Below, piece by piece: positions 861-40,489 of a DNA stretch of 40,979 bases. The position numbers were made by a program, and so were the translations under genes. How positions within the stretch are numbered: position 1 is the first letter of the stretch; every line of letters starts with the position of its first letter. The stretch lies in NCBI GenBank assembly GCA_023247275.1, contig JAHFGT010000016.1, positions 1 through 40,979 of the forward strand, written 5' to 3'. The DNA comes from Candidatus Omnitrophota bacterium. GTDB taxonomy: Bacteria > Omnitrophota > Gorgyraeia > Aquiviventales > Aquiviventaceae. The notes beneath the pieces are model-generated. The model saw only the letters and a program-made list of their open reading frames with translations. It was not told the origin of the DNA and made no database searches.

Positions 861-866
861 GAGTCG

Positions 867-1829: not shown

Positions 1830-1854
1830 AGCAACTCCTTCTGACCGTCGATAT

Positions 1855-1877
1855 AATTGTCACTTTAATTGACAATT
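1855..1877. promoter_or_regulatory. Palindromic operator of the toxin-antitoxin genes
   Basis: AATTGTCA at 1855-1862 and TGACAATT at 1870-1877 form a perfect 8-bp inverted repeat with a 7-bp AT-rich spacer. The right arm contains the -35 box of the promoter that follows. Phd/YefM antitoxins typically repress their own promoter by binding such palindromes, so I infer this is the autoregulatory operator. Confidence 0.6.
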
Positions 1878-1897
1878 CATGTGTCATATAGTATGCT
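1869..1897 (+). promoter_or_regulatory. Sigma-70-type promoter of the toxin-antitoxin operon
   Basis: A consensus -35 box TTGACA (1869-1874) is followed after exactly 17 bp by TATGCT (1892-1897, 4 of 6 matches). Transcription would start near 1904, only about 12 nt before the antitoxin ATG, with the Shine-Dalgarno GGGAGG (1905-1910) at the very 5' end of the transcript. The surrounding DNA is clearly more AT-rich than the flanking genes. Confidence 0.6.
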
Positions 1898-1915
1898 TGT
1901 ACGTGGGAGGTCACA

Positions 1916-2203
1916 ATGCGCAGGATTAAAGCAGATACAACGCTGATTGGGGTTTCCGAGTTACGCACGCAGGCTGATGCAATTCTCAAAGTGGCCCGAG
2001 AGCAGCCGGTCATCGTCGAGAAACGCCATAAGCCGGTTGCGGTCCTCATGCCGGTCGAGCAGTACAATCGTACGGAGCAGCTCTTGGACGCTTTGGAGGA
2101 TACGATCTTGGGATTGCTGGCCAAGGAGCGCGAACGGCGAGCACCTCGGAAAGGCTGGCTGACGTTAGAGCAACTCGAACATCGAGTGAGTCTGCGGTCC
2201 TAA
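1916..2203 (+). CDS. Type II antitoxin, Phd/YefM family
   Basis: The 95-residue protein has the Phd/YefM pattern: an N-terminal dimerisation and DNA-binding part with GVSELRTQADAIL (residues 12-24), VIVEKRHKPVAVLMP (32-46) and the following EQYNR, then a charged C-terminal tail that would wrap the toxin. It is preceded by GGGAGG with 5-nt spacing. The toxin gene starts 3 bp after its stop codon, as usual for such pairs. The family neutralises its toxin and represses the operon; the palindrome overlapping the -35 box supports autoregulation. The long helical tail ending in SLRS is the part expected to vary with the toxin partner. Confidence 0.88.
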   Translation: MRRIKADTTLIGVSELRTQADAILKVAREQPVIVEKRHKPVAVLMPVEQYNRTEQLLDALEDTILGLLAKERERRAPRKGWLTLEQLEHRVSLRS

Positions 2204-2206
2204 CTG

Positions 2207-2509
2207 ATGTGGGATGTTAAGATTCATCCGCTTGTCTGGGAAGAAGATTTTGCTCGGCTCGACCCGCACACCCGTGCCTTGATCACCAAGGCGATCCGAA
2301 CGAAACTCAGCACACATCCGACCGAATTCGGCAAGCCGCTGTCCGGACCGCTGCGGGGCTACTGGCGCTTGCGGGTTGGCGACTACCGCGTGATCTATCG
2401 TATCGAGCAGCAGCGGCTAGTGGTGCTTGTGATCAAGGCTGGCATGCGACGCGACGCGGAAATCTATCTCGAGGCAATCCCCCGACTTCGCAAGCTGGGC
2501 TGGCTTTGA
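2207..2509 (+). CDS. Type II toxin, RelE/ParE family
   Basis: This 100-residue basic protein fits the RelE/ParE fold: an N-terminal helical part (EEDFARLDPHTRALITKAIRTKL), then the strand region with GPLRGYWRLRVGDYRVIYRI and the C-terminal VLVIKAGMRRDAEIY. RelE toxins cleave mRNA on the ribosome, whereas ParE toxins poison gyrase; the YRVIY and RRDAEIY signature is closer to the RelE type, but I cannot separate the two by eye. It is encoded directly behind the antitoxin and stops 16 bp before ispE, so the pair has been placed between two housekeeping genes. Read-through from the module could add to ispE transcription. Confidence 0.88.
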   Translation: MWDVKIHPLVWEEDFARLDPHTRALITKAIRTKLSTHPTEFGKPLSGPLRGYWRLRVGDYRVIYRIEQQRLVVLVIKAGMRRDAEIYLEAIPRLRKLGWL

Positions 2510-2525
2510 CGTCTCACGCTGCAAC

Positions 2526-3392
2526 ATGTTTCGGCTTCGAGCCCCAGCCAAACTCAACCTGTATCTCCGGGTGGTCGGACGCCGGCCGGATGGCTACCAT
2601 GAGATTGAGACCGTGTTCGAACGGGTCAATCTCGCGGATGAGTTGGTGTTCGAATCGGACGCCCACCGTCTCGAGCTCACGTGCGATGATCCAGCCCTCT
2701 CGTGCGGCCCGGAGAACCTGGTCATCAAGGCGGCCACCCTGCTGCAGCAGCACACCGCGACACGGCACGGGGCTCGCATCCATCTGATCAAGCGGGTGCC
2801 GGTCGGTGCCGGGCTTGGTGGGGGATCATCGGACGCCGCCACGACATTGCAGGGGCTCAATCAATTGTGGGAGTTACACGTATCGCAGCCAACGCTAATC
2901 CAGCTTGCCGGGCAGCTCGGGGCTGATGTCCCATTCTTCCTCTATAATACGGTGTGTGCGATTGGCCGTGATCGAGGAGATATCTGCCAGCCCATTGCAT
3001 GCCGTGAACCGTTATTCCATGTTCTTGTTACTCCTGGAATTGCGCTGTCGACCAAGGAAATCTACGCCGGCCTGCAATTGGACTTGACAGCGCAGAAACC
3101 CTCAATTACGATAGTCCAACACGCCTTAAGCAACGGCTCGCTCAGCGAGCTCGCTTGCGGGTTGTGGAACGATTTAGAACCTGAAGCGATCCGGCGTTGT
3201 CCTATCATTGCGCACATCCAGGCTCACCTACAGCGTTTCAACTGTCGTGGCGTTCGTCTGTCCGGAAGCGGTTCAGCCGTCTTCGGACTGTGTCAGAATG
3301 CTGCCAACGCCGACACAGTGGCTGCAGCGATGCGGCGGGTTGCAGAGCCTGGATGGCGCATTGACGTTCTCCACACCGACGAGTCAACGTAA
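2526..3392 (+). CDS. ispE: 4-diphosphocytidyl-2-C-methyl-D-erythritol kinase
   Basis: IspE phosphorylates CDP-ME at the 2-hydroxyl in the MEP pathway to isoprenoid precursors. The 288-residue protein shows the GHMP-kinase layout: the N-terminal APAKLNLYLRV motif (residues 6-16, with the catalytic Lys), GRRPDGYHEIETVF, the ATP-binding glycine-rich loop PVGAGLGGGSSDAA (92-105), catalytic Asp134 in GADVPFFL, and a C-terminal third motif GVRLSGSGSAVFG. Length is normal for the family. The ATG is 16 bp after the toxin stop. With ispH at the far end of this window, the cell evidently uses the MEP route. No separate promoter is obvious, so transcription may come from the transketolase or toxin-antitoxin promoters. 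Confidence 0.97.
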   Translation: MFRLRAPAKLNLYLRVVGRRPDGYHEIETVFERVNLADELVFESDAHRLELTCDDPALSCGPENLVIKAATLLQQHTATRHGARIHLIKRVPVGAGLGGGSSDAATTLQGLNQLWELHVSQPTLIQLAGQLGADVPFFLYNTVCAIGRDRGDICQPIACREPLFHVLVTPGIALSTKEIYAGLQLDLTAQKPSITIVQHALSNGSLSELACGLWNDLEPEAIRRCPIIAHIQAHLQRFNCRGVRLSGSGSAVFGLCQNAANADTVAAAMRRVAEPGWRIDVLHTDEST

Positions 3393-3457
3393 GTCCTGGT
3401 TTCGGCATCAGTCCCGTCCAACGGGCAGGTAGGACCATCCTTGGCACTCATGGGCTG

Positions 3458-3480
3458 TGCTCCACCGGTAGGTGGGAGCA
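3458..3480 (+). other. Hairpin before spoVG
   Basis: TGCTCCACC (3458-3466) and GGTGGGAGCA (3471-3480) can form a 9-bp stem with one bulged G and a four-base loop. It has no T-tract, so it is not a convincing terminator for ispE. It lies 11 bp before the Shine-Dalgarno of spoVG and could shape that leader. A smaller CCCGT-cca-ACGGG hairpin sits at 3413-3425. Confidence 0.3.
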
Positions 3481-3501
3481 GCGTGGGTCAGGAGGGACGG
3501 G

Positions 3502-3906
3502 ATGGAGATTACCGAAGTCCGAGTCGCGGTGCGTGATAGCCCAGAAAAGCGGCTGAGAGGCTACGCGACCCTGACGTTCGACCATTGTTTCGTCGTGCGG
3601 AACATTAAGATCATTGAAGGCAAGCAGGGCTTGTTCGTGGCGATGCCGTCGCACAAGCCGAAGGTGACCTGCGCGCGCTGCCACGCCAAAAGCGATGTGG
3701 GTGCCCGCTACTGCGGCCAATGCGGGAGCGCGATCACCCGATCGATGGCGCCGACTGGCGATCAAGAGGTGGTCGATCCGCAGGCGCATCGAGATATCGC
3801 GCACCCGATCACCGTCGAGTTCCGCCAGTATCTTCAGGAGAAAGTCCTCGAAGCCTACGAAGCGGAACGAGTCAAGGCGCAGGCAGCAGCCAGTTCCTCA
3901 TCGTGA
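3502..3906 (+). CDS. spoVG: SpoVG family protein with an inserted zinc ribbon
   Basis: The first 50 residues (MEITEVRVAV through GLFVAMPS) and residues 97-122 (RDIAHPI to VLEAYE) match SpoVG, a small family of site-specific nucleic-acid-binding regulators first known from sporulation but widespread elsewhere. Between them, where SpoVG normally has a short KDGxF-type loop, this protein has about 45 extra residues with two CxxC pairs (Cys57/Cys60 and Cys71/Cys74), a typical zinc-ribbon spacing. The start at 3502 is chosen because GGAGGG at 3491-3496 lies 5 bp upstream and MEITEV is the usual family N-terminus; a longer in-frame reading from 3472 lacks such a site. The gene is about 110 bp after ispE, a neighbour it often has. 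The role is regulatory, target unknown. Confidence 0.85.
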   Translation: MEITEVRVAVRDSPEKRLRGYATLTFDHCFVVRNIKIIEGKQGLFVAMPSHKPKVTCARCHAKSDVGARYCGQCGSAITRSMAPTGDQEVVDPQAHRDIAHPITVEFRQYLQEKVLEAYEAERVKAQAAASSSS

Positions 3907-3915
3907 GTTGATGGT

Positions 3916-4839
3916 ATGAACAAATCGGCGCAGCGTGAGCAGGCGCTGCAGCTCCGCAACAGCGGGTACACATATCAAGCGATTCAGAGCCGCCTGCACG
4001 TTGCCAAATCAACCGTGTGGCGTTGGCTGAAAGCGGCTGGCTACGCTGAGACACAAGCACAGCGATACACACGGCTGAAACGCCAAGCACAGGAACGCGC
4101 GGCTGTGGTGAATCGACAGCGACGGATCGATCGCACCAATCGACTCATTGAGCAGGCGCGGAAGGCGGTAGGCGCCCTGACAGCACGTGACTTGTGGTTA
4201 CTAGGCACCGCACTGTATTGGGCTGAGGGTGCGAAGCAGAAGCCACACAATATTTCACAACAAACGCGGATCTCGAACTCCGATCCCTCGATGATCTTGC
4301 TGATCATTCGATGGCTGCGAGACTGCTGTGCAATCACTGCAGATCGTGTCTCAGTGGAATTGTACATTCACGAATCAGCGAACATCGTGGCCGCGTTGCA
4401 ATTCTGGAGCCGCACGCTACAGATTCCTAGCACACGCATACCGGTTCGGTTAAAACGGCACCGGCTGTCGTCGAGCCGCAGGAATACCGGTGCAAATTAT
4501 GTCGGTCTGGTGCGTGTGTCGGTGGCTCGGAGCGCCGACCTCAATCGGACGATTACCGGATGGATCGAGGGAATCTGCATGATCCTCGGCGAGTCGATTG
4601 GGGAGTCGGCTAAGGGTAAGCCCGGAGACTTTGGATCTCCGTATCCAGGTTCGAGTCCTGGCTCCCCAGTTTTTCAGGCCGGTGCCGATGGATCATCAGT
4701 TGCGGCCGACGCAGAAATGTTCTTTCCTCGTCGGAGCGTATTGGAAGCGTTGAAGAGACTCGAATCTCATCGACAGTTCGCAGGACTTTACTCAGCGGCC
4801 CACCGGGTCATTAGACGGGAGAGCAGAATAGACCCATGA
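3916..4839 (+). CDS. HTH protein with a homing-endonuclease-like domain, reading through tRNA-Gln
   Basis: The N-terminus (residues about 5-40: EQALQLRNSGYTYQAIQSRL then VAKSTVWRWLK) is a resolvase-type helix-turn-helix. After a basic linker, residues 93-220 contain LWLLGTALYWAEGAK and NSDPSMILLIIRWL, a pattern I associate with small HTH proteins having a LAGLIDADG-like fold, and end with TGWIEGI, where related proteins usually stop. Here no stop codon follows: the frame continues through the complete tRNA-Gln gene (from residue 228) and ends in TGA overlapping the glmU ATG. The last 80 residues are therefore probably not a true domain, and the gene may have lost its stop or be decaying. No strong ribosome-binding site is seen. 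Function is unproven; DNA binding is likely. Confidence 0.55.
   Translation: MNKSAQREQALQLRNSGYTYQAIQSRLHVAKSTVWRWLKAAGYAETQAQRYTRLKRQAQERAAVVNRQRRIDRTNRLIEQARKAVGALTARDLWLLGTALYWAEGAKQKPHNISQQTRISNSDPSMILLIIRWLRDCCAITADRVSVELYIHESANIVAALQFWSRTLQIPSTRIPVRLKRHRLSSSRRNTGANYVGLVRVSVARSADLNRTITGWIEGICMILGESIGESAKGKPGDFGSPYPGSSPGSPVFQAGADGSSVAADAEMFFPRRSVLEALKRLESHRQFAGLYSAAHRVIRRESRIDP
4599..4669 (+). tRNA. tRNA-Gln (anticodon TTG)
   Basis: A full cloverleaf can be drawn: acceptor TGGGGAG pairs with CTCCCCA; D-stem GGCT/AGCC with a 7-base loop; anticodon stem GGAGA/TCTCC with loop CTTTGGA, anticodon TTG; a 4-base variable region; T-stem CCAGG/CCTGG with loop TTCGAGT; discriminator G at 4669. The TGGGG start and the discriminator G are typical of bacterial tRNA-Gln. 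CCA is not encoded, which fits the CCA-adding-type nucleotidyltransferase gene at 31777. Five T residues follow directly (4670-4674). The gene lies inside a longer protein reading frame on the same strand. Confidence 0.95.
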
Positions 4840-6281
4840 GAACACTCAATGCGATCATCCTAGCGGCCGGGGAAGGCACGCGGATGAAGTCTGAGCGGCC
4901 CAAAGTGCTCCATACGATCTGCGGCCGTCCGATGATTTCGTATGCGTTGGATCTGGCGACCGCGACCGGGGCGAAACAGCCGATCGTGATCCTCGGCCAT
5001 GGAGCCGATCAGGTCAAACCGGTGCTCCCGAAGGAAGCGCGGGTCGTGATCCAGGCGAAACAGCTAGGCACCGGCGACGCTGTGATCGCCGCCAAGCGGA
5101 CGCTGGGCAGTGTCGGCGATGTGTTGATCCTCTATGCGGACACGCCGCTGTTGCGGCGCACGACCGTCCAGAAGTTAGTCGAAAGCCACTTCAAGACGAG
5201 CGCCACCTGTACGTTGTTGACCGCGCACCTGGCCGACCCAAGCGGGTATGGGCGGATTGTGCGCAATGAGACCGGTCAAATCATCGGGATTATTGAGGAC
5301 GGCGAGGCGAACGCCAGCCAACGCGCGATCCGGGAGATCAACATCGGTGCCTTGGCGTGCAAAGTCCCGGCGTTGGTGGAGGCGCTCGCGGTCATCACCC
5401 CGAGTCCGCACAAACGGGAACTGTATTTGACCGAAGTCATTTCCCATATCGCGCGGCAAGAAGGGACCAAGATCCAGGCCACGCGCGTCGAAGAGGTGTC
5501 AGAGGCGTTGGGGGTCAATTCCCGCACCGAGCTGGCGCGCGCGATTGGTGTGATCCGGCAGCGGATCGTCGACGCCCATCTGCACAACGGGGTGACCATT
5601 GAAGATCCCCAGACAGCCTTTATTGATCATGGGGTCACGATCGGCGCTGACACGATTATCCATCCGTATACAGTGATCGAAACCGGTGTGTCGATTGGAC
5701 GACGGTGTTCCATCGGGCCGTTTGCTCGACTGCGCACCGGCACGGCGATTGCGGATGACGTCCGCGTGGGCAACTTTGCTGAGCTGGTGCGCACCAAAGT
5801 GAGTTCGCATGTGCGGATCAACCATGTCAGCTACCTCGGCGATGCGACCATCGAGGAGAGCGTCAACATTGGAGCGGGCAGTATCACGGCGAACTTCGAC
5901 GGGACCGAGAAACATCCAACGCAGATCGGCAAGGGCGCGTTTATCGGCTGCGATACGGTGCTCATCGCTCCGGTGAACATTGGGCAGAAAGCTGTGACCG
6001 GGGCTGGGGCCGTCATCCCGCGCGGGCATGATGTGCCGGCCAAAGGCGTGGTGGTTGGCGTCCCAGCTCGACCACTGGGGCTGTCAGGGGTAGATCATGG
6101 GGTTGGGGCGAGGCACAAGTCGTTGGATGGGTCGCCAAAGTCCACCGCCTCGCCACCGCGAACATCAACCGCCACCAGGCGCGTGCGACCGGCCGCGCGG
6201 CCCTCACGAGCGATCAACCACCGAACCGCCCGTCGATCAGGTCGCTCGACCCGCGCGCGGCTGCACAAGTCGCGGCGGTAA
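4836..6281 (+). CDS. glmU: Bifunctional GlmU: GlcN-1-P acetyltransferase / GlcNAc-1-P uridyltransferase
   Basis: GlmU makes UDP-GlcNAc for peptidoglycan and lipid A. The N-terminal domain has the nucleotidyltransferase signature LAAGEGTRMKSERPKVLH (residues 9-26), the GTGDAV substrate segment and YADTPLL. The C-terminal half is a left-handed beta-helix with hexapeptide repeats, the catalytic His in NHVSYLGDA, and NIGAGSITANFDG. After about residue 418 (GVPARPLGLSG) comes an unusual 63-residue tail rich in Arg, Ser, Thr and Pro, with no resemblance to the normal short GlmU C-terminus. The ATG overlaps the TGA of the upstream frame; GGGAGAG at 4817-4823 is 12 bp away, rather far. Supplying UDP-GlcNAc links this gene to the lpx genes 10 kb downstream. 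Confidence 0.95.
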   Translation: MRTLNAIILAAGEGTRMKSERPKVLHTICGRPMISYALDLATATGAKQPIVILGHGADQVKPVLPKEARVVIQAKQLGTGDAVIAAKRTLGSVGDVLILYADTPLLRRTTVQKLVESHFKTSATCTLLTAHLADPSGYGRIVRNETGQIIGIIEDGEANASQRAIREINIGALACKVPALVEALAVITPSPHKRELYLTEVISHIARQEGTKIQATRVEEVSEALGVNSRTELARAIGVIRQRIVDAHLHNGVTIEDPQTAFIDHGVTIGADTIIHPYTVIETGVSIGRRCSIGPFARLRTGTAIADDVRVGNFAELVRTKVSSHVRINHVSYLGDATIEESVNIGAGSITANFDGTEKHPTQIGKGAFIGCDTVLIAPVNIGQKAVTGAGAVIPRGHDVPAKGVVVGVPARPLGLSGVDHGVGARHKSLDGSPKSTASPPRTSTATRRVRPAARPSRAINHRTARRSGRSTRARLHKSRR

Positions 6282-6306
6282 TTCCGTCGGCTGTTGAGGC
6301 AGATCC

Positions 6307-7368
6307 ATGGCGAAAACCCGTACGACGCTTCATCCGCACATGCGCACGACGGCGACGCACAGCACGGTGGCGACTCCGCGGCCTCGGCCAGGTGCTGCGG
6401 CGCTGTCCGGTCGGTTGCTCAGCGCCGAGCTGGCGATCGTGACGGGCAACTCAAACCCAGAGCTCGCCCGAGCGATTTGCAGAAATCTTCACGTGCCGCT
6501 GACCGACTCGTTCGTTGGCCGGTTCAGTGAAGGTGAGATCCGCGCCAAGATCAACGAAAACGTCCGCGGCAAAGACGTGTTCGTCGTCCAGCCGACCTGT
6601 CCGCCGGTCAATGACAATTTGATGGAGTTGCTCATTATGACGGATGCGCTGCGCCGGGCATCCGCCCGGCGGATCACCGCAGTCATTCCGTATTTCGGCT
6701 ATGCGCGCCAAGACCGCAAAGATCAGCCCCGGGTGCCGATTACGGCCAAATTGGTGGCGAACCTCATCACGACCGCAGGGGCTGACCGAGTGTTAACCAT
6801 GGATCTGCACGCCGGCCAAATCCAAGGCTTCTTCGATATCCCGGTGGACCATCTCTATGCGGTCACCGTGTTCGAGCAACATCTCCGGCAGCGCCGGCTC
6901 AAGCCGATCGTGATCGTGTCGCCTGATGTCGGCGGCATCAAAATGGCCCGAGCCTATGCGAAACGGTTGGGCGCCGGTCTGGCGATCGTGGATAAGCGCC
7001 GCGACAGCCCGGATGCTGTTGAAGTGATGCATGTGCTCGGTGAAGTCAAGGGGAAGATCTGCATCCTGGTCGATGACTTGATTGCGACCGGCAGCTCGCT
7101 CGTTGAGGCGGCGGACAAACTTCAGCGAGACGGGGCTACCGCGGTCTATGCGTATGTGACGCATCCGGTCCTGTCAGGACCGGCCCGAGAGCGGGTCGCC
7201 CGCTCGACGATGAAGGAGCTGATGGTCACGGATACCATCCCGCTCGATCCGAAAAGACCGCATGGCAAAATTGCGGTCGTGTCAGTTGCCAAGCTGCTGA
7301 GCGAGGCGATTAAGCGGATTCACTACGAGTTGTCGATCAGTGTGCTGTTTGACGGCATGCCGGGATAA
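6307..7368 (+). CDS. prs: Ribose-phosphate pyrophosphokinase (PRPP synthase)
   Basis: Prs makes PRPP from ribose-5-phosphate and ATP. Residues 41 onward follow the family: ELAIVTGNSNPELARAI, the flexible-loop region YFGYARQDRKDQPRVPITAK (129-148), DLHAGQIQGFFDIPVDHL, and the PRPP-binding loop near 255-265. That loop reads VDDLIATGSSL instead of the usual VDDMIDTGGTL, so an Asp and the GT pair are replaced. There is also a roughly 40-residue Thr/Arg/Pro-rich N-terminal extension before the normal family start. The ATG at 6307 has TGAGG 7 bp upstream, which supports the longer start. The gene follows glmU by 25 bp and precedes rplY, a common arrangement. Confidence 0.95.
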   Translation: MAKTRTTLHPHMRTTATHSTVATPRPRPGAAALSGRLLSAELAIVTGNSNPELARAICRNLHVPLTDSFVGRFSEGEIRAKINENVRGKDVFVVQPTCPPVNDNLMELLIMTDALRRASARRITAVIPYFGYARQDRKDQPRVPITAKLVANLITTAGADRVLTMDLHAGQIQGFFDIPVDHLYAVTVFEQHLRQRRLKPIVIVSPDVGGIKMARAYAKRLGAGLAIVDKRRDSPDAVEVMHVLGEVKGKICILVDDLIATGSSLVEAADKLQRDGATAVYAYVTHPVLSGPARERVARSTMKELMVTDTIPLDPKRPHGKIAVVSVAKLLSEAIKRIHYELSISVLFDGMPG

Positions 7369-7394
7369 CCGGAAGAGCTATCCGTGAACCGTGA

Positions 7395-7438
7395 ACAGGT
7401 GAACTGGTACGAGCCAACCCGTACACGTCTTCACCTGT
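7395..7438 (+). promoter_or_regulatory. Two-tier hairpin in the rplY leader
   Basis: ACAGGTGAA (7395-7403) and TTCACCTGT (7430-7438) are a perfect 9-bp inverted repeat, and inside it GTACG (7407-7411) pairs with CGTAC (7420-7424). The left side is preceded by tandem CGTGAAC units (7383-7396). There is no T-tract. It may act as a leader structure or a repeat remnant between prs and rplY. Confidence 0.45.
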
Positions 7439-7469
7439 ATACCGGTACACGAATCGTACGAGGAGCCCT

Positions 7470-8183
7470 ATGGTAACCACAGCGAAAACCACCACAACGA
7501 TTCAACAGGAGCTGGTGTTGCAGCGACGGTCAACCCACGGCACTCGGCCGGTTCGACGGCTGCGCGCCGAGGGTGTGGTGCCAGGCGTGGTGTACGGCCG
7601 GCAGATGGATCCGCTGCCGGTCTCGGTGAACCGCCGGGAGCTGATCCGGTTGCTGCATTCACAGGGGGGCGAACACTCGCTCATTCGCCTTCGGCTGGAG
7701 GGAGACGGTTGGGAGAAGCCGGCGTTGGTTCAGTCGATCCAGCATGACCCGGTGGATGGCCATCTGGTCCATGTCGACTTCCACGCCATTGTGCTGACCG
7801 AGCGGCTGAAATTGCGGGTGCCGTTACTCCTGAAAGGTGACTCGGTTGGTGTCAAACAAGAGGGTGGAATCCTGGAGCAGTTCTTGCGGGACGTTGAGGT
7901 CGAATGTCTCCCGACCGAAATTCCTGCGTCAGTAGAATTCGATGTGAGCCTGCTGACGATCGGTCAAACGGTTCACGTGCGCGACTTGATCGCTCCGAGC
8001 AATGCCCGCATTACCAGCGACCCTGACGGTGCCATCGCCTCGGTGTTGATGCCGAAGGTGGAGAAGCCTGAGGAGGAAGCGGCAGCGGTCGCCGAGCCAG
8101 AAGTGCTCCGCGAGAAGAAGGAAGAGCCAGAGGCTGGTGCGGCCGAGCAGGCGAAGCCTGAGCCGAAGAAAGAGAAAGAGTAA
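7470..8183 (+). CDS. rplY: 50S ribosomal protein bL25, CTC/TL5 type
   Basis: This 237-residue protein is the long (CTC/TL5) form of bL25, which binds 5S rRNA. The N-terminal 5S-binding domain includes LVLQRRSTHGTRPVRRLRAEG and VPGVVYGR; the second domain runs from about residue 100 to 200 (LKLRVPLLLKGDSVGVKQEGG, then the ECLPTEIPASVEFDVS segment). The last 40 residues are a Glu/Lys/Ala/Pro-rich tail of low complexity, often seen in this family. The start has GAGGAG a few bases upstream (7460-7465). It lies between prs and pth, the order seen in many bacteria. Confidence 0.95.
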   Translation: MVTTAKTTTTIQQELVLQRRSTHGTRPVRRLRAEGVVPGVVYGRQMDPLPVSVNRRELIRLLHSQGGEHSLIRLRLEGDGWEKPALVQSIQHDPVDGHLVHVDFHAIVLTERLKLRVPLLLKGDSVGVKQEGGILEQFLRDVEVECLPTEIPASVEFDVSLLTIGQTVHVRDLIAPSNARITSDPDGAIASVLMPKVEKPEEEAAAVAEPEVLREKKEEPEAGAAEQAKPEPKKEKE

Positions 8184-8192
8184 GACCGCAGC

Positions 8193-8771
8193 GTGAACGT
8201 CATTGTTGGATTAGGCAACCCAGGGCACACCTACCACGAAACCCGTCACAATGTCGGGTTTATGGTAGTCCAGGTGCTCGCTCAGCGGCATGGGATCCAG
8301 TTGGCCGAGCGATTGATGAGCCCTGACGGCGACCATCCGGCAGCGGTCTATGGCGATTATACGCAGGACAGCCACACCGTGCGATTACTGTTGCCGTTGA
8401 CCATGATGAACGAGTCCGGAGAAGCGCTGCGGGTGGTCAACGTGCCAACCGATCAGGTGTTGGTGGTGTGTGACGATGTCAATTTGCCGTTGGGGTCGAT
8501 TCGGCTACGGCCGCATGGCACCGCTGGCGGTCACCACGGTCTGCAGTCGTGTTTGGACGTGCTGCAGACCGAGTTGGTCCCACGGCTGCGGGTGGGTGTT
8601 GGCGCAGAGCCCCTGCCGGCTGATCTGACGCAATTTGTGCTCTCGCGATTTGTCAGCGGCGAGCGCCCGCTGATGAAGCGGACCATCGAGCAGGCCGTGG
8701 ATGCCTGCGAGGCGTGGGCCCTGACGGGCATCACCGCTGCGATGAATCGGTTCAACCGCGTTGAAGGATGA
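8193..8771 (+). CDS. pth: Peptidyl-tRNA hydrolase
   Basis: Pth recycles peptidyl-tRNA released from stalled ribosomes. The 192-residue protein has the diagnostic VGLGNPGHTYHETRHNVGF with the catalytic His in TRHNVGF, then LLPLTMMNESGEAL with the conserved Asn, VVCDDVNLPLG, and GTAGGHHGLQS. It uses a GTG start: this codon gives the family-typical MNVIVGLGNPG, and no ATG fits. It begins 9 bp after rplY and its end is 16 bp before rpsF. Length is normal. Confidence 0.96.
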   Translation: MNVIVGLGNPGHTYHETRHNVGFMVVQVLAQRHGIQLAERLMSPDGDHPAAVYGDYTQDSHTVRLLLPLTMMNESGEALRVVNVPTDQVLVVCDDVNLPLGSIRLRPHGTAGGHHGLQSCLDVLQTELVPRLRVGVGAEPLPADLTQFVLSRFVSGERPLMKRTIEQAVDACEAWALTGITAAMNRFNRVEG

Positions 8772-8787
8772 CGAAGAAGGTGACCAC

Positions 8788-9129
8788 ATGACACCGACCA
8801 AGGCCTATGAGGCGCTGGTGATTTTGAAAACCGCCGGGACCGAGCAGGACCTCGCGCGCCACGGGGCGCAACTCGAAGAGCTCATCAAGCGCGTGGGCGG
8901 TCGGATGGTCGCCTCGCAAAATATGGGCCGGCGCAAGCTCGCGTTTCGAATCTCTCGACAGACCGAGGGCTATTATTACCTGGTTCGATTTCAGGCCCCG
9001 GCAGATCATGTGGCCGAGCTGGAACGATTGCTGCGGCTCAATGAGGTCGTGGTCCGATTTATGGTGTTGAGCGCGGACGACGTGTCGACGACTCAGCCAG
9101 TGGCCACGACCGCTGCGGTTGCGAGCTAA
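8788..9129 (+). CDS. rpsF: 30S ribosomal protein bS6
   Basis: The 113-residue protein matches bS6, which sits on the small-subunit platform with bS18. Recognisable are YEALVILK near the start, GGRMVASQNMGRRKLAF, YYYLVRFQAPADHVAELERLLRLNEVVVRFMVL. The ATG at 8788 is preferred over an upstream TTG in frame inside pth because AAGAAGGTGA ends 4 bp before it and the protein then begins like the family. The C-terminal Thr/Ala tail is short. It leads the rpsF-ssb-rpsR-rplI group. Confidence 0.95.
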   Translation: MTPTKAYEALVILKTAGTEQDLARHGAQLEELIKRVGGRMVASQNMGRRKLAFRISRQTEGYYYLVRFQAPADHVAELERLLRLNEVVVRFMVLSADDVSTTQPVATTAAVAS

Positions 9130-9131
9130 CA

Positions 9132-9596
9132 ATGGTCAGCTTGAATCGTGTCTTGCTCATTGGAAACCTGACCAAGGATCCAGAGTTACGCTATACCCCG
9201 TCCGGGACCCCGGTGGCGAATTTGCGGCTGGCCGTCAACTCCACCTTCAAGGACCAGGCGGGTCAGCGCAAAGAAGAGACCTGTTTTGTCACGATCGTGG
9301 TCTGGAGCAAGCAGGCTGAATTGTGTAACCAGTATTTGAAGAAGGGACGCTCCGTGTTCATCGAGGGCCGCCTGCTCTATCGCAGTTGGGAGGCCGAAGG
9401 CAAGACGCGTTCTACGATGGAAGTGCGGGCGGATCGCGTGCAGTTCCTGGGCGGGCCAGGCGGGCCCTCGGGCGGATCGAGCGCTGGGCCGGCCGCGATG
9501 CGGACTGAATCGCCAGCCGATGTTTCCAATGAGCGGTCAGAGGAACCAGAGGCTGAGCCGGTGCCAGAGGGGTCGGATGCCGACGTGCCGTTCTAG
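9132..9596 (+). CDS. ssb: Single-stranded DNA-binding protein
   Basis: SSB coats single-stranded DNA in replication and repair. The OB-fold spans residues 1-108: LNRVLLIGNLTKDPELRYTPSGTPVA, FVTIVVWSKQAELCNQYLKKG, VFIEGRLLYRSW. It is followed by a Gly/Ser/Pro/Glu-rich linker and the acidic tip DADVPF, the partner-binding tail that recruits replication and repair proteins. The gene lies between rpsF and rpsR with 2-bp and 21-bp gaps, the classical arrangement. Length 154 is typical. Confidence 0.97.
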   Translation: MVSLNRVLLIGNLTKDPELRYTPSGTPVANLRLAVNSTFKDQAGQRKEETCFVTIVVWSKQAELCNQYLKKGRSVFIEGRLLYRSWEAEGKTRSTMEVRADRVQFLGGPGGPSGGSSAGPAAMRTESPADVSNERSEEPEAEPVPEGSDADVPF

Positions 9597-10462: not shown

Positions 10463-11806
10463 ATGGAGCACATTTCCCATCTCACCACGGCGCATTTTCG
10501 TACCCCTCCCTCGAGTGAAGAGGCTGAGCAAGCCGTGCTCGGATCCATGCTGCTGGAGGAGGACGCTGTGGTTCAAGCGGCCGAGCTGCTTGAAGACCTC
10601 GCGTTCTACCGCGATGCACACCGGAAACTGTTCGCCGCGCTCCTCGAATTGTATAAAAAAGATGTCACCATCGATCTGGTCACCGTGACGGATGAGCTGA
10701 GAAAGCGCGGGTGGCTGGAGGAGATCGGAGGACCGAGCTACCTGGCGACCCTGACGAATGTGGTGCCCAGCGCGGCGAATATCAAGCACTACTGCCACAT
10801 TGTCAAAGAGAAATATATCCTGCGACGATTGATTCAGGTCACCAGCGAAATTCAGACGGATTGTTTTGATTTGGTGAAGGAAGCCGACCTGCAGTTGGAC
10901 GAGGCAGAGTCGAAGATCTTTCACATCGCGGATTTGAAGATCAAGCGCGATGCGGTGGCCATGAAAGACATCGTCAAGAGCTCGATCGAGATGATCGATC
11001 AGCTCTATCAGCGCAAAGGCGCGATCACCGGCCTGCCGACCGGGTTCATGGAATTGGACCAGCAACTGGCCGGGTTGCAGCCGGCTGATCTGATTGTCGT
11101 GGCTGGCCGCCCGGCCATGGGCAAGAGCAGTTTCGCGTTGTGCGTCGCCGAGCATGTGGCGCTTCAGCAGAAGGCCGGTGTCGCGGTCTTCAGTCTGGAG
11201 ATGTCGAAGGAAAATGTCGTGCAACGCATGCTGTGCTCGCACGCCCGCATCAATGCGCATAATGTCCGGACCGGCCTGCTCTCCCACAGCGACTGGCCAA
11301 AGCTGACCCAGGCGGCTGGCAAGCTGTCCGAGTCGCCAATCTATGTCGACGACTCCCCAGGGATCTCTATCTTGGAACTGCGCGCCAAAGGGCGACGGCT
11401 CAAGCGAAAGTTCAGCATCGGGCTGATCGTGATCGATTATCTCCAGCTCATGGATGCGACCGCCGCCGGCGAAAACCGCCAGCAGGAGATCTCCACGATT
11501 TCCCGAGGACTCAAGGCGCTGGCGCGGCAGCTCAATGTGCCGGTGATCGCGGTAAGCCAATTATCACGAGCTCCGGAGAAGGAGCTGCGACGGCCTCGGT
11601 TGTCCGACCTGCGAGAGTCCGGCGCGATCGAACAGGATGCTGATGTGGTGTTGATGCTGTTTCGCGAGGATTACTACAGTCCGACCGAAGAGAACAAGGG
11701 TGTGGCCGAAGTGATCATTGCCAAACAGCGCAACGGCCCGACCGGCACGGTGAAGCTGGCCTTTATTAAGGAGTACACACGGTTTGAGACCCTGGCGCAG
11801 GGCTAA
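10463..11806 (+). CDS. dnaB: Replicative DNA helicase DnaB
   Basis: DnaB unwinds DNA ahead of the replisome as a hexamer. The N-terminal collar domain begins at about residue 13 (PPSSEEAEQAVLGSML), followed by the RecA-type ATPase with Walker A GRPAMGKS (215-222), FSLEMSKE, the DYLQLM Walker-B region, ISRGLKALARQLNVPVIAVSQLSR and LRESGAIEQDADVV. The length of 447 is standard and there is no intein. The ATG at 10463 is taken as start; an adjacent in-frame TTG at 10460 is less likely. bamA begins at its stop codon. Confidence 0.97.
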   Translation: MEHISHLTTAHFRTPPSSEEAEQAVLGSMLLEEDAVVQAAELLEDLAFYRDAHRKLFAALLELYKKDVTIDLVTVTDELRKRGWLEEIGGPSYLATLTNVVPSAANIKHYCHIVKEKYILRRLIQVTSEIQTDCFDLVKEADLQLDEAESKIFHIADLKIKRDAVAMKDIVKSSIEMIDQLYQRKGAITGLPTGFMELDQQLAGLQPADLIVVAGRPAMGKSSFALCVAEHVALQQKAGVAVFSLEMSKENVVQRMLCSHARINAHNVRTGLLSHSDWPKLTQAAGKLSESPIYVDDSPGISILELRAKGRRLKRKFSIGLIVIDYLQLMDATAAGENRQQEISTISRGLKALARQLNVPVIAVSQLSRAPEKELRRPRLSDLRESGAIEQDADVVLMLFREDYYSPTEENKGVAEVIIAKQRNGPTGTVKLAFIKEYTRFETLAQG

Positions 11807-35718: not shown

Positions 35719-35848
35719 ACCGTCTCTCCGCTCTTACGCCTAGTCTAACCAATGTAATAACAAAGTGTTATACAGTTAAGCCAAATAAACAAATTTTGTT
35801 TCATATGCCCTTGACGGTTTCAGCATACATATGGTATGGTTGGCGTAC
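35719..35848 (+). other. AT-rich upstream region with short palindromes
   Basis: This stretch is far more AT-rich than its surroundings and holds no reading frame. AAACAAATTTTGTTT (35787-35801) is a perfect palindrome with one central base, and ATAACA-aag-TGTTAT lies near 35758-35772. A possible promoter TTGACG (35811-35816) with TATGGT (35835-35840, 18-bp spacer) is also present. It belongs to the control region of the protease downstream. Confidence 0.5.
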
Positions 35849-35877
35849 TTCATACAATTGATAATCGATTGTAAAAT
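35849..35877 (+). promoter_or_regulatory. Promoter with palindromic operator before the riboswitch
   Basis: TTCATA (35849-35854) and TAAAAT (35872-35877) are separated by 17 bp; transcription would begin near 35884, just before the aptamer. The spacer is almost filled by a 19-bp near-perfect palindrome ACAATTGATAATCGATTGT (35854-35872, one mismatch), a plausible repressor site. The alternative promoter at 35811-35840 would add about 40 nt of leader. Confidence 0.5.
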
Positions 35878-35889
35878 GACAATCTGACG

Positions 35890-35960
35890 AGAAAGGCACA
35901 CTCCGAGCAATCGGAGGTCGCAAAACCGCGGGTCCAACAAACAGGATAGCCGGGTTGCCG
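35890..35960 (+). promoter_or_regulatory. GEMM-I (cyclic di-GMP-I type) riboswitch aptamer
   Basis: The segment has the GEMM-I layout: AAAGGCA (35892-35898), a hairpin CTCCGA-GCAA-TCGGAG (35901-35916) with a GNRA loop, GTCGCAAAACC (35917-35927, cf. GACGCAAAGCC), a second arm GGGTCC...AGGATAGCC with the tetraloop-receptor-like part, and GGGTTGCCG (35952-35960) closing P1 with GGCA. The base aligned to the ligand-selecting position near the 5' GGCA reads as G, which favours c-di-GMP over the cGAMP-responsive variant, though I numbered this by eye. The 3' strand of the aptamer is also the left arm of the terminator, so ligand binding should prevent termination (ON switch). No GEMM copy is seen elsewhere. 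Confidence 0.88.
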
Positions 35961-35986
35961 AACGAGGCAACCCGGTTTTTGTTTTT
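35950..35986 (+). terminator. Riboswitch-controlled intrinsic terminator
   Basis: CCGGGTTGCC (35950-35959) and GGCAACCCGG (35966-35975) form a perfect 10-bp stem with a 6-base loop, followed by TTTTTGTTTTT (35976-35986). It lies 52 bp before the protease ATG and overlaps the aptamer's 3' strand. Confidence 0.93.
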
Positions 35987-36037
35987 CTAAGCCAACGCAC
36001 TCGCTGCTGATGGATCGGACAACATAGGGAGGTTCGG

Positions 36038-39000
36038 ATGAGACGTGCGCTACATGGGATGTGGCTCGGCCTAGTGATTGGGACCAGCGCGATCGTCGGT
36101 ATCGCAGCGACCTCAGACGCGAAGGCTGCACGGACCAGCATTGGGCAAGACCAGGCCATGGTGGCCACTCGATCCGGAAAGACACTGTCCCACACCAAAG
36201 GCCGATTCATCGTTAAATTTAAGCCCAGCCTCACGCAGTGCGCCCACTGTCTGCTCCATGAGCACCAGCAGTTTTCGTCCGCCCTCACCGATCATTCCAC
36301 ATCGCTCGACCGGCTCAACGCCGAGGTTCGTGTCAAAGCAATCCATCATTTGTTCGTGGATCATGACACCCGGTCCGTCGCTGACGTCCACGCGACCCAA
36401 GTGCGACAACTGCACGCGAAATCAGGCCGGCGTGGGAAGAAAGCCCTGACCGGCCAGGCCCCGGATTTGTCGAATGTGTACATGTATGACATCCCGGAAG
36501 ATGCGGATATCGACGCCGTCTGCCAGCAGTTTGCCACCGACCCACATGTCGAGTACGCCCAACCAGACTACACGATCGTCGCCACCCTGGTGCCGAACGA
36601 CCCGTACTTCAATTCCTCTGGGTCCTGGGGCCAGTCCTACGACGATCTGTGGGGATTAAAGAAGATCCAGGCAGTCCCGGCGTGGGATGTGACCCAAGGC
36701 CAAGGGGTCGTGGTGGGTGTGGTGGACTCTGGACTGGACTATACCCACCCGGACATCGCGGCCAACGTCTGGACCAACCCACGCGAAATCGCTGGCAACA
36801 AAATCGACGATGACGGCAACGGCTTTGTCGATGATGTCCGTGGCTGGAACTTTGCCGGCAACAACAACGATCCGAAAGACGGCAATGGCCACGGGACGCA
36901 TGTCTCCGGCACGATCGCGGCGGTGGGCAACAACAACCTGGGGATCATCGGCGTGGCGCCGCAGGCGAAGATCATGCCAGTCAAGGCGCTGGACGACAAC
37001 GGTTCTGGCAGCAGCACCAGCCTGGCACAAGCCATCCTGTATGCGGCCAAGAACGGCGCGGATGTGATCAGCAATAGCTGGGGCTGCGGCTCACCGTGTC
37101 CCAGCAATCCGGTGGTGGAGGACGCGGTGCGCACCGCCTATAACCTGGGAGCGGTCGTGGTCTTCGCCGCGGGCAATAGCGCGGATGATGTCTCCAAATA
37201 TAGCCCGACCAACATGACCAACCCGAAGCCGATCGTCGTGGCAGCCTCGGATCAACTCGACCAGCCGACGTCGTTCACGAACTTCGGCGCGACCGTTGAT
37301 GTGACCGCACCTGGCGGTGGCACCAACATCTCGCCACCCGCGTCACCGGTCAACAATATTCTGTCGTTGAAGTCCAGCGCTTGCACCATCTGCACCTCCG
37401 CCCCCAATCTGGTCATCGGCGGCAACTACCTGCGGATCGCTGGTACGTCGATGGCCACCCCGCATGTGTCCGGGGCGGCGGCGCTGATCATCGCCAAGCA
37501 ACCCTCGATCACGAACGAGGAAGTGCGGCAGTTACTCCGCAATTCAGCCGACGATGTCGGGCCGGTCGGGTTTGATCCCAAGACCGGGGCTGGTCGGATC
37601 AATCTGTTCAAGGCCTTGACGACCAACGGGACCTTGCAGGTGAAAATCACCAGTCCCGCCGTCGGAGTTGAACTGTCATCGGTGAAAGGGACCGTCACGA
37701 TCACGGGGACCGTCAAGGGCACCAACTTGAAAGAATACACGCTGTCGTACAGCCGGGCCTCGACACCGACCACGTGGGTGCCGATCGGTGGGCCGGCTGT
37801 GATCCCGGTCGATAACGGGACGTTAGGCGTCTGGAATCCGAGCGGGTTGGCGGACGACTTCTATACATTGCGGGTCGTCGGCATGACCCAGACCGGCGGG
37901 AAATTTGAGGATACGGTGCAGGTGATCGTGCTCAAGTACATCGCAACGCCCCTGACCACCAACACCGCCACCCAGGCCACGCCATCGATTTTCGGTGACA
38001 AGGTCGCGTGGTCCGATTTCCGCAACAACAAGGCTGATGTGTTTCTCTATGATCTGACCGCCAAGACCGAGCGCCAACTGACCACCGCCACGAACGTGGA
38101 ACCGCGGTATCCGATCATCGCAGGCTCGCGGGTGGTGTGGCGAGAGTCGTTGAGCGCCTCTAACAACGATCGGCTGGTGCTCCATGAGTTGGCGTCGAAC
38201 ACTCAGCGGATCCTGGACAATGTCACCTCGGCCAAGCTGGATCTGGCCTTCGCTGACGACAAAGTCGTCTGGACCGATTGGCGCAATAGCTCGACCACCG
38301 GGCAGGATGTCTACCTGTACGATCTGACCAGCAACACCGAACGGCGGCTGACGACCGATCCGGCGAATCAGCAACAGCCATCCGTGTCCGGCAATCGCGT
38401 GGTCTGGACCGACCAACGCAACGGCAATATGGAGATCTACCTGTACGATCTGACCAGCAACACCGAACGGCGGCTGACGACCGATCCGGCCAGCGATGAG
38501 AATCCGGCGATTTCAGGCGACCGGGTCATTTGGCTGCGTCGACGCAGCGGTGGAGATGATCTGTACCTGTATGACCTCACGACCAATACTGAACGTCGGC
38601 TGACGACCTCAGATTCCTTCAAGTACACTCCGAAGATCTCTGGTAGCCGTGTGGTGTGGGCCGACCAACGACAGAGCCAGATGGACATCTACACGTTGGA
38701 CCTGACCAACGGCACCGAGCAGCGGTTGACGTGGAACCCGGCCGTGCAGCAGAACCCGGCGGTCTCGGGTGGGCGGGTGGTGTGGGAAGACCAGCGCGCC
38801 GGCAACTTTGACATCGATGTTCTGGCGCTGAACAATCCACCCGTGCTCAATAGCATTGGCAGCAAGACCGTCGCAGCTGGGCAACCGCTCACGTTCGCGA
38901 TCGCTGGATCGGATCCTGACGGCGATGTGCTGACGTTCTCGGCCGGCTCGTTGCCGACGGGCGCGGTATTCAATCCGACCGCGCGGACCTTTACTTGGAC

Positions 39001-40429
39001 GCCGACGGCAAACCAAGCGGGTACCTACGCCATTGTATTCACCGTGAGCGACGGGCAGGCCCAGCAGTCAGAAACGGTACCAGTCACAGTGACCGCTCCG
39101 GATCTGAGTATGGTCTCGATCAGCGGGCCCACCAGCGCGGTGCGGGGCACGACCATCTTGATGAGTTACGCGCTCAAGAACCAGGGCACCGCACCGAGTG
39201 GCGGCTGCACGCTCAGTCTCTATCTCTCGAGCGATGCGACCATCACTACCGGGGACACCTTCTTGGGAAGCGTGAGTATTGGCAGCTTAACACCAGGCAG
39301 CAGTACGCAGGGCAGCGGCAATCTCCTGGTCCCAGCTGCGTTACCGACCGGGACGTACGTGCTGGGTGCGGTCGTCGATTCGTCTGGGGTGGTCAATGAA
39401 AGCAATGAAGCGAACAACGCGCTCGCCGGCAATACGATCGCGGTCAGCGATGGCGGATCAGACACCACGCCGCCGGCGGTAGCGATCACCACCCCTGCGG
39501 CCGGGGCCACCGTGCCGGCCAGCGGGTTTGCGTTCTCCGGCACCGCGACCGATGCCAGTGGGGTCAAAGAGATCCACATCTATGTGTACGACAATGCGCG
39601 CAGCCTCTACACCGTCGCGGACGCGCTGGCGAGCTACGATCCCGCCACCTCGACGTGGACCTTCCCGGTCCTCTCCAGCCACATCACGCCAGGACAAGCG
39701 GTTCGGCTGTGGGTCTTGGCGGTCGATATCAATAACAACGTGAGCGCCTGGCAGTCGCGGGACGTGACGGTTGCCGGATCGGCTGATACCGCACCGCCGT
39801 CAGTGGTGATCAGCGCTCCTGCGGCCGGGGCCACCGTGCCGTGGACCGGGTTCGCGTTCTCCGGGACTGCGACCGATGCGAGCGGGGTGAAAGAAGTCCG
39901 GATCTACGTGTACGACATCGCGCGCAATACGTTCACGGTGTCGAATGCCCTCGCCAGTTATACCGCCAGCACAGGGGGGTGGAGCTTCTCAGTGCTGTCG
40001 TCGCATGTGACGCCGGGGACGACAGCCCGGTTATGGGTCCAGGCAACGGATACCAAAGGAAATTTCAGTGCCTGGCAATCTCGTGATGTCGTGATCAGCG
40101 CGACCGGATTGGATACGCAAGCACCCAGTGTCGCGATTATGCAGCCGGCCACTGGCACCATTTTGCCAGCCAGCGGGTTTACCTTCGCCGGCACCGCGAC
40201 TGATGCCAGTGGGGTGAGCGAGGTGCGGGTCTTTGTGTACGACTACGGCCGCCAGTTCTACACCGTCAGCAATGCGCTGGCCACGTACAATGCCAGCGCT
40301 GGAACCTGGTCGTTCCAGGTGCTGGCGTCCCATGTGACGGCTGGCGCTGATGCTCGCCTCTGGGTGAAAGCGACTGACACGAAAGGCAACACCAGCAACT
40401 GGCGATATCGGCAGTTGCCCGTGCGATAA
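36038..40429 (+). CDS. Secreted subtilisin-like (S8) multidomain protease under riboswitch control
   Basis: The 1463-residue protein begins with a signal peptide (1-30, ending SDAKA) and an inhibitor-like propeptide to about 185 (RFIVKFKP, HVEYAQPDY). The S8 catalytic domain (205-530) has Asp230 (VVDSGLDYTHPD), His285 (GNGHGTHVSG), oxyanion Asn in FAAGNSAD and Ser471 (AGTSMATPHVSG), all intact. Then follow an Ig-like domain (535-630), about six TolB-like beta-propeller blades (632-930; YDLTSNTERRLTTDP), a cadherin/He_PIG-like domain (930-1018), a CARDB domain (1019-1136) and three tandem ~105-residue Ig-like repeats (1141-1463). No LPXTG, PEP-CTERM or T9SS signal is seen at the end. AGGGAGG at 36026-36032 sets the start. 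Likely exported; substrate unknown. Confidence 0.96.
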   Translation: MRRALHGMWLGLVIGTSAIVGIAATSDAKAARTSIGQDQAMVATRSGKTLSHTKGRFIVKFKPSLTQCAHCLLHEHQQFSSALTDHSTSLDRLNAEVRVKAIHHLFVDHDTRSVADVHATQVRQLHAKSGRRGKKALTGQAPDLSNVYMYDIPEDADIDAVCQQFATDPHVEYAQPDYTIVATLVPNDPYFNSSGSWGQSYDDLWGLKKIQAVPAWDVTQGQGVVVGVVDSGLDYTHPDIAANVWTNPREIAGNKIDDDGNGFVDDVRGWNFAGNNNDPKDGNGHGTHVSGTIAAVGNNNLGIIGVAPQAKIMPVKALDDNGSGSSTSLAQAILYAAKNGADVISNSWGCGSPCPSNPVVEDAVRTAYNLGAVVVFAAGNSADDVSKYSPTNMTNPKPIVVAASDQLDQPTSFTNFGATVDVTAPGGGTNISPPASPVNNILSLKSSACTICTSAPNLVIGGNYLRIAGTSMATPHVSGAAALIIAKQPSITNEEVRQLLRNSADDVGPVGFDPKTGAGRINLFKALTTNGTLQVKITSPAVGVELSSVKGTVTITGTVKGTNLKEYTLSYSRASTPTTWVPIGGPAVIPVDNGTLGVWNPSGLADDFYTLRVVGMTQTGGKFEDTVQVIVLKYIATPLTTNTATQATPSIFGDKVAWSDFRNNKADVFLYDLTAKTERQLTTATNVEPRYPIIAGSRVVWRESLSASNNDRLVLHELASNTQRILDNVTSAKLDLAFADDKVVWTDWRNSSTTGQDVYLYDLTSNTERRLTTDPANQQQPSVSGNRVVWTDQRNGNMEIYLYDLTSNTERRLTTDPASDENPAISGDRVIWLRRRSGGDDLYLYDLTTNTERRLTTSDSFKYTPKISGSRVVWADQRQSQMDIYTLDLTNGTEQRLTWNPAVQQNPAVSGGRVVWEDQRAGNFDIDVLALNNPPVLNSIGSKTVAAGQPLTFAIAGSDPDGDVLTFSAGSLPTGAVFNPTARTFTWTPTANQAGTYAIVFTVSDGQAQQSETVPVTVTAPDLSMVSISGPTSAVRGTTILMSYALKNQGTAPSGGCTLSLYLSSDATITTGDTFLGSVSIGSLTPGSSTQGSGNLLVPAALPTGTYVLGAVVDSSGVVNESNEANNALAGNTIAVSDGGSDTTPPAVAITTPAAGATVPASGFAFSGTATDASGVKEIHIYVYDNARSLYTVADALASYDPATSTWTFPVLSSHITPGQAVRLWVLAVDINNNVSAWQSRDVTVAGSADTAPPSVVISAPAAGATVPWTGFAFSGTATDASGVKEVRIYVYDIARNTFTVSNALASYTASTGGWSFSVLSSHVTPGTTARLWVQATDTKGNFSAWQSRDVVISATGLDTQAPSVAIMQPATGTILPASGFTFAGTATDASGVSEVRVFVYDYGRQFYTVSNALATYNASAGTWSFQVLASHVTAGADARLWVKATDTKGNTSNWRYRQLPVR
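38310..38490 (+). repeat. Exact 55-bp duplicated segment in the TolB-like blades
   Basis: Positions 38310-38364 and 38436-38490 are identical over 55 bp, 126 bp apart, encoding YLYDLTSNTERRLTTDPA in adjacent blades. Other blades differ at the DNA level. This points to recent duplication or gene conversion within the propeller. Confidence 0.85.
39460..40429 (+). repeat. Three tandem Ig-like domain repeats at the protease C-terminus
   Basis: Units of about 320 bp starting near 39460, 39786 and 40114 each encode SGF-F-SGTATDASGVKE/SEV, IYVYD or VFVYD, the SHVTPG-type turn and a final D-W-Q-S-like end. Spacing is regular and the units are clearly related in both DNA and protein. Confidence 0.85.
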
Positions 40430-40456: not shown

Positions 40457-40489
40457 GCGGCCGGTTGCCCTTCTCGGGCAACCGGCCGC
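40457..40489 (+). terminator. Terminator hairpin after the S8 protease gene
   Basis: GCGGCCGGTTGCCC (40457-40470) and GGGCAACCGGCCGC (40476-40489) are perfectly complementary over 14 bp with a 5-base loop, followed by TGTGTGTTGTG. The GGTTGCC/GGCAACC core repeats that of the riboswitch terminator. Confidence 0.75.

Follow-up and report, generated by a model that had tools for sequence, protein, structure and literature searches.

A c-di-GMP-I riboswitch predicted to switch on a secreted subtilase gene in an uncultured Omnitrophota bacterium

Introduction

How might an uncultured bacterium decide when to make a large exported protease? The window analysed here (the whole stretch of 40,979 nucleotides) is contig C5 of a 1.89-Mb draft genome (G000) that is 86% complete, and an initial annotation had placed a GEMM-I aptamer and an intrinsic terminator directly ahead of a gene for a giant S8 protease. 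The leader raises the questions of whether the aptamer is genuine, which ligand it would bind, and whether binding would turn the gene on or off. The Bc2 class-I switch on the cap adhesin gene of Bacillus thuringiensis is a transcription read-through ON switch for a surface protein (PMC6366702), and a class-I c-di-GMP riboswitch on ppep-1/zmp1 (CD2830) of Clostridioides difficile directly controls a secreted protease as an OFF switch (PMC11477304). In the open-licence literature we found nothing on riboswitches in Omnitrophota. From the sequence and from folding models, a single secreted subtilase gene in the window is very probably under the transcriptional control of a c-di-GMP-I riboswitch, which would act as an ON switch for c-di-GMP.

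Results and discussion

The leader contains a canonical c-di-GMP-I aptamer

The covariance check against RF01051 that the initial annotation had proposed gives 65.3 bits (cut-off 35, E 1.1e-12 over the genome) for a match at 35885-35962, and our own covariance model scores the window aptamer at 80.4 bits. The aptamer spans 35885-35963 on the plus strand, and the elements that had been named from the sequence were all located: a P2 hairpin (35901-35916) of six pairs, supported by sequence and covariation and capped by a GCAA (GNRA) loop at 35907-35910, the core GTCGCAAAACC, and the P1 closing strand. The 5′ strand of P3 (AACC.CGGGTC, 35924-35934) is followed by a segment (35945-35959) that holds the 3′ strand of P3, the ligand-contact C and the P1 closing C, such that AACC-C-GGGTC pairs with GAT-AG-CCGGGTT and the final aptamer bases are GCCGAA. 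In an alignment of 20 homologous aptamers from the genome and its relatives, 97% of the pair cells are paired, so the known structure holds; double changes occur in 14 of the 20 pairs, with covarying pairs in P1b, P2 and P3, and none of the shuffle and slid controls on this alignment comes near the observed pairing and covariation.

Pocket positions are numbered here after Vc2. Among 102 aptamers A47 and C92 are invariant and position 20 is G in 98, and the corresponding bases in the window (G20 at 35895, A47 at 35922, C92 at 35958) are all as in canonical c-di-GMP-I. The window aptamer is a genuine class-I c-di-GMP aptamer with a canonical binding pocket, and because it has all three bases c-di-GMP is its expected ligand. 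It has in common with RF01051 the fold, the pairing pattern, the pocket, the GNRA-capped P2 and a short P3, and its target is likewise an exported, surface-related gene; it differs in the P1b internal loop, where C24 and U43 (35899 and 35918) replace A24 and A43, a common covarying variant in this lineage. The covariation, at the second base of this loop, is non-Watson-Crick: A24 goes with A or G43 (61 cases) and C24 with U or C43 (28 cases), with one exception.

Might the aptamer sense another ligand, either 3′,3′ cGAMP or whatever the c-di-GMP-I-GGC variant binds? The best Rfam label is in fact RF03167 (c-di-GMP-I-GGC), which matches at 35886-35963 with 66.4 bits (cut-off 59, E 1.1e-13 over the window), one bit above RF01051. 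However, the RF03167 consensus CGCGAA has G at the A47 position, which we infer to be the base that defines and names that variant, and the window and all 102 family aptamers have A there. For this reason the RF03167 label was dropped and the aptamer is filed under RF01051. An A at position 20 is the change known from cGAMP-responding variants (GEMM-Ib); 35895 is G, and only three of the 102 relatives carry the A (L236:50-127; L256:2737-2840, minus strand; L203:2367-2446, minus strand). We therefore regard a different ligand as improbable.

The aptamer shares a strand with the terminator

Two promoter-like sites precede the aptamer on the plus strand, each recognized by consensus match only: TTGACG-18-TATGGT (35811-35840), whose GGTATGGT element recurs ahead of the riboswitch leaders L078 and L083 in the same genome, and an alternative TTCATA-17-TAAAAT (35849-35877). 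Downstream, sequence and folding identify an intrinsic terminator (35950-35986) that reads CCGGGTTGCC-GAACGA-GGCAACCCGG-TTTTTGTTTTT, and the stem and T-tract described initially are both present: a perfect 10-bp stem (35950-35959 with 35966-35975), a 6-nt loop and the T-rich TTTTTGTTTTT tail. The tail runs to 35986, 51 bp before the ATG at 36038 (52 bp in the initial annotation). A Shine-Dalgarno-like AGGGAGG (36026-36032) lies outside the terminator.

All 10 bases of the terminator 5′ arm (35950-35959) lie inside the aptamer and include the ligand-contact C and the P1 closing C, such that the two forms are mutually exclusive; the shared strand of the initial annotation is thus confirmed. The predicted folding energy of the 102-nt leader is -44.8 kcal/mol, where shuffled sequences average -26.9 (z -5.2). 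In these folding calculations an RNA truncated at 35962 folds as the aptamer, and when extended to 35986 it refolds as the terminator. Without ligand, the 3′ strand of the aptamer (35950-35959) would pair with 35966-35975, and the resulting terminator would stop the transcript ahead of the gene. If c-di-GMP were bound as the aptamer emerges, this strand, including the ligand-contact C, would be locked in P3 and P1, the terminator would be blocked, and the protease would be made. Because the bound aptamer and the terminator exclude each other, read-through with ligand is predicted, that is, an ON switch; the ON logic originally proposed holds on this evidence. The terminator form (about -45 kcal/mol) is computed to be far more stable than the free aptamer (-18 to -25 kcal/mol), and the switch decision must therefore be kinetic. 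The overlapping design recurs in 29 of 109 sampled leaders; in 61 the terminator starts after the aptamer, and in 19 none was detected.

An alternative hypothesis is that the sign is reversed and ligand binding promotes termination, as on ppep-1. Class-I OFF switches exist, one of them on a secreted protease (PMC11477304), and some homologous leaders repeat the aptamer 3′ strand, which would permit such a design. However, the window leader has a single copy of this strand with the entire terminator 5′ arm inside the aptamer, which makes an OFF switch at this locus quite improbable. It is very improbable that the leader is a decayed, non-functional remnant, since the absence of aptamers from half of the related S8 genes is outweighed by paired positions and pocket bases that are all intact in the window and covary in relatives, and by an intact promoter-like site, terminator, Shine-Dalgarno sequence and reading frame.

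The favoured ON switch is mechanistically of an ordinary, known kind. It shares with Bc2 the class-I aptamer and, by prediction, the ON sign, but the target of Bc2 is an adhesin and that of the window switch a protease. An S8 subtilase is an unusual target, not an unprecedented one, the one known parallel being ppep-1, which has the opposite sign: ppep-1 is a metalloprotease made at low c-di-GMP, whereas the window gene encodes a serine protease predicted to be ON.

The controlled gene encodes an exported subtilase

As initially annotated, the gene at 36038-40429 (plus strand) encodes an exported S8 subtilase of 1463 residues, identified by its open reading frame, Pfam domains, structure matches and motifs. 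Its length is as stated, and "giant" is a relative term, as the open frames of some homologues reach about 3,000 residues. Inspection of the sequence suggests a probable Sec signal peptide in residues 1 to about 31 (36038-36130), and with this predicted N terminus the protein looks secreted; no clear anchor was found in it. The Peptidase_S8 domain (residues 221-519, 36698-37594, E 1.5e-62) has an intact catalytic triad (D230, H285, S471) and the oxyanion Asn380. The propeller and Ig-like modules of the initial annotation are also present: a TolB/PD40-like region (37955-38827) with a weak PD40 match and seven V-x-W blade motifs spaced about 43 residues apart, followed by He_PIG, CARDB and three Big_7 Ig-like domains found by domain search (38837-40426). 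These modules and the propeller region are additional to what is seen in the closest solved structures, which are subtilases of the deseasin MCP-01 and thermitase types (3vv3, 1dbi, 1thm; E 3e-52 to 6e-45 for the catalytic domain). Among named genomes the close relatives are only distant subtilases at 28-43% identity, many of them from one genus because of the pattern bias of the search. We suggest that the subtilase would work extracellularly when the cells are attached.

None of the tested upstream neighbours (alkaline ceramidase-like, acyltransferase-like and SNase-like) forms an obvious operon with the protease gene, and on its downstream side lies a convergent gene, read from the opposite strand. 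The transcripts of these two genes may both end at a GC-rich inverted repeat between them (40457-40489).

The pairing of switch and subtilase recurs in the family

The initial annotation had pointed to homologous loci as a place where its reading could fail, and the pairing recurs there, at 8 to 10 of 20 S8 genes in the family. The sample comprised 27 same-family genomes (about 39 Mb) holding about 322 aptamers at E <= 0.001, or about 8 per Mb, which corresponds to roughly 1 per 120 genes (about 0.85% of genes) if one gene per kilobase is assumed. From 24 S8 genes with a substantial match, three cut at the 5′ side and one that was the second of a gene pair were left out. An aptamer lies directly upstream of the 20 testable genes in eight clear cases, 60-165 nt away (the window gene at G000:C5, and G015:C7, G015:C11, G015:C40, G005:C217, G001:C50, G012:C13 and G020:C53), and in two weak ones (G015:C30, G004:C244). 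Chance would give about 0.2 such genes (binomial 3e-12 for 8 of 20), and even if 5% of genes had an aptamer the probability of eight would be 3e-6. The switch-S8 pairing is recurrent in the family, and its spread over seven genera marks it as a regulatory habit of the family rather than an isolated case. Half of the family S8 genes have no switch, and the genes that carry an aptamer do not cluster on the S8 tree: the label is scattered, with 9 changes against a shuffled mean of 7.8, and the pairing has therefore been gained or lost repeatedly. A 54%-identical S8 paralogue in the window genome (G000:C64:7151-8935; L110, L172) has no detectable aptamer upstream.

Other aptamer targets include type IV pilus and pseudopilin genes, secreted Ig-like and beta-helix proteins, response regulators and helix-turn-helix regulators, and this remaining regulon is the usual one for a c-di-GMP-I riboswitch; the Pfam count of S8 among targets is biased, because S8 loci were added on purpose. 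Since the pairing recurs in relatives, these uncultured bacteria probably tie extracellular protein digestion to the signal for surface attachment. For an uncultured lineage, this connects a second messenger to extracellular proteolysis in a way that can be tested, and the predicted sign is opposite to that of the best-known case, ppep-1 of C. difficile. Moreover, c-di-GMP-I switches are dense in this family and use several expression platforms ahead of similar genes, a natural collection in which evolutionary changes of switch sign can be studied.

Some relatives carry a doubled aptamer 3′ strand

In 17 of the 102 sampled aptamers (~17%) the 18-nt 3′ strand (for example GATCGCCGGGTTGCCGAA) occurs twice, the second copy lying near the first and mostly 25-43 nt away. 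G015:C7 and G015:C40 also have it, and the protease leaders with a doubled strand are four (G012:C13, G020:C53, G015:C7, G015:C40). Each copy carries the P3-pairing bases and the ligand-contact CC, and nearly all keep the P1 bases. The RCCGAA tail is dispensable for P3 pairing, yet it is kept in 15 listed second copies, where far fewer than one would be expected for a random 6-mer. Counting second copies without the CC/GAA tail gave 47 of 102 against 33 expected and was discarded as uninformative. The second copy has the ligand-contact C, and usually the GAA tail, at L187:1302-1420, L189 (minus strand, upstream of the G020:C53 S8 gene), L177:594-730, L186 (minus strand), L205, L211, L217, L222, L226, L233, L235, L239, L244, L250, L254, L265 and L281-L287. 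In exact-pattern searches of 384 genomes of the phylum, matches to the doubled strand came from family f1, from two further families of its class (f17 and f4) and from f65, which belongs to a different class; a reversed control pattern gave zero matches. The window leader has no second copy, its sole secondary match being the 3′ arm of the terminator, and its switch is the single-copy ON form.

What would a second copy do? Where a terminator is recognisable, the later copy is its 5′ arm. In growing-transcript folds of G012:C13, G015:C40 and L250 the 5′ strand of P3 pairs with copy 1, next with copy 2, and then the terminator wins; G020:C53 and G015:C7 follow this order only partly, and L211 does not. 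An extra helix that extends P3 supports the copy-2 register in three protease leaders and L250 (shuffle p 0 to 0.025). As a general feature of two-copy leaders this helix was rejected, as it is not significant elsewhere in the form tested. A cautious reading is that the doubled strand may be an antiterminator obliged to resemble the strand it replaces, which would make an OFF switch. A bolder reading, which we consider possible but doubtful, is that one 5′ half is shared by two mutually exclusive aptamers: the early one, built with copy 1, would leave the second copy free to form the terminator (OFF), and the later one, built with copy 2 and extended in some leaders by the extra helix, would block it (ON). 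If true, a two-copy switch could invert the sign of control or answer only to mid-range c-di-GMP, and sister genera would regulate the same type of protease with opposite signs or in a band-pass manner. We found no description of a doubled 3′ strand in the open-licence literature. Whole tandem c-di-GMP-I aptamers have been described (PMC9481103) and are likewise repeated c-di-GMP-I elements ahead of one gene, but in the relatives of the window only the 18-nt 3′ strand is doubled and not the whole aptamer, and the window has neither.

Genome setting and other aptamers

The draft genome has 17 GGDEF matches and one HD-GYP-type match, so that it can probably make and degrade c-di-GMP; no EAL match was found in it, and c-di-GMP turnover is plausible. 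Seven of the GGDEF matches lie consecutively on one strand of a 9-kb stretch (G000:C65, about 400-9539). An LpxC-FabZ fusion reading frame, LpxI and Omp85 indicate an outer membrane with lipid A, as judged from gene content, and a 16S fragment contains GGGTGTAAAGGGCACGTA, which is presumably one base off the OP3 probe site.

The genome holds 16-17 c-di-GMP-I switches. In L089 (G000:C51:10319-10458, minus strand) two hairpins are inserted exactly between GACGC and AAAGCC, beside the A47 position. Low-scoring aptamers ahead of pseudopilin-type genes, L091 (G000:C73:8545-8622 and 10615-10736), L092 (G000:C8:6076-6155) and L090 (G000:C54:3038-3109), have hairpins inserted in or beside P1b/P2, and some of their true 5′ halves lie upstream of the Rfam match. 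The aptamer L087 (G000:C6:4395-4469, minus strand) is without the 3x3 internal loop of P1b and precedes a run of small secreted proteins that resembles a chaperone-usher (Csu-like) pilus cluster.
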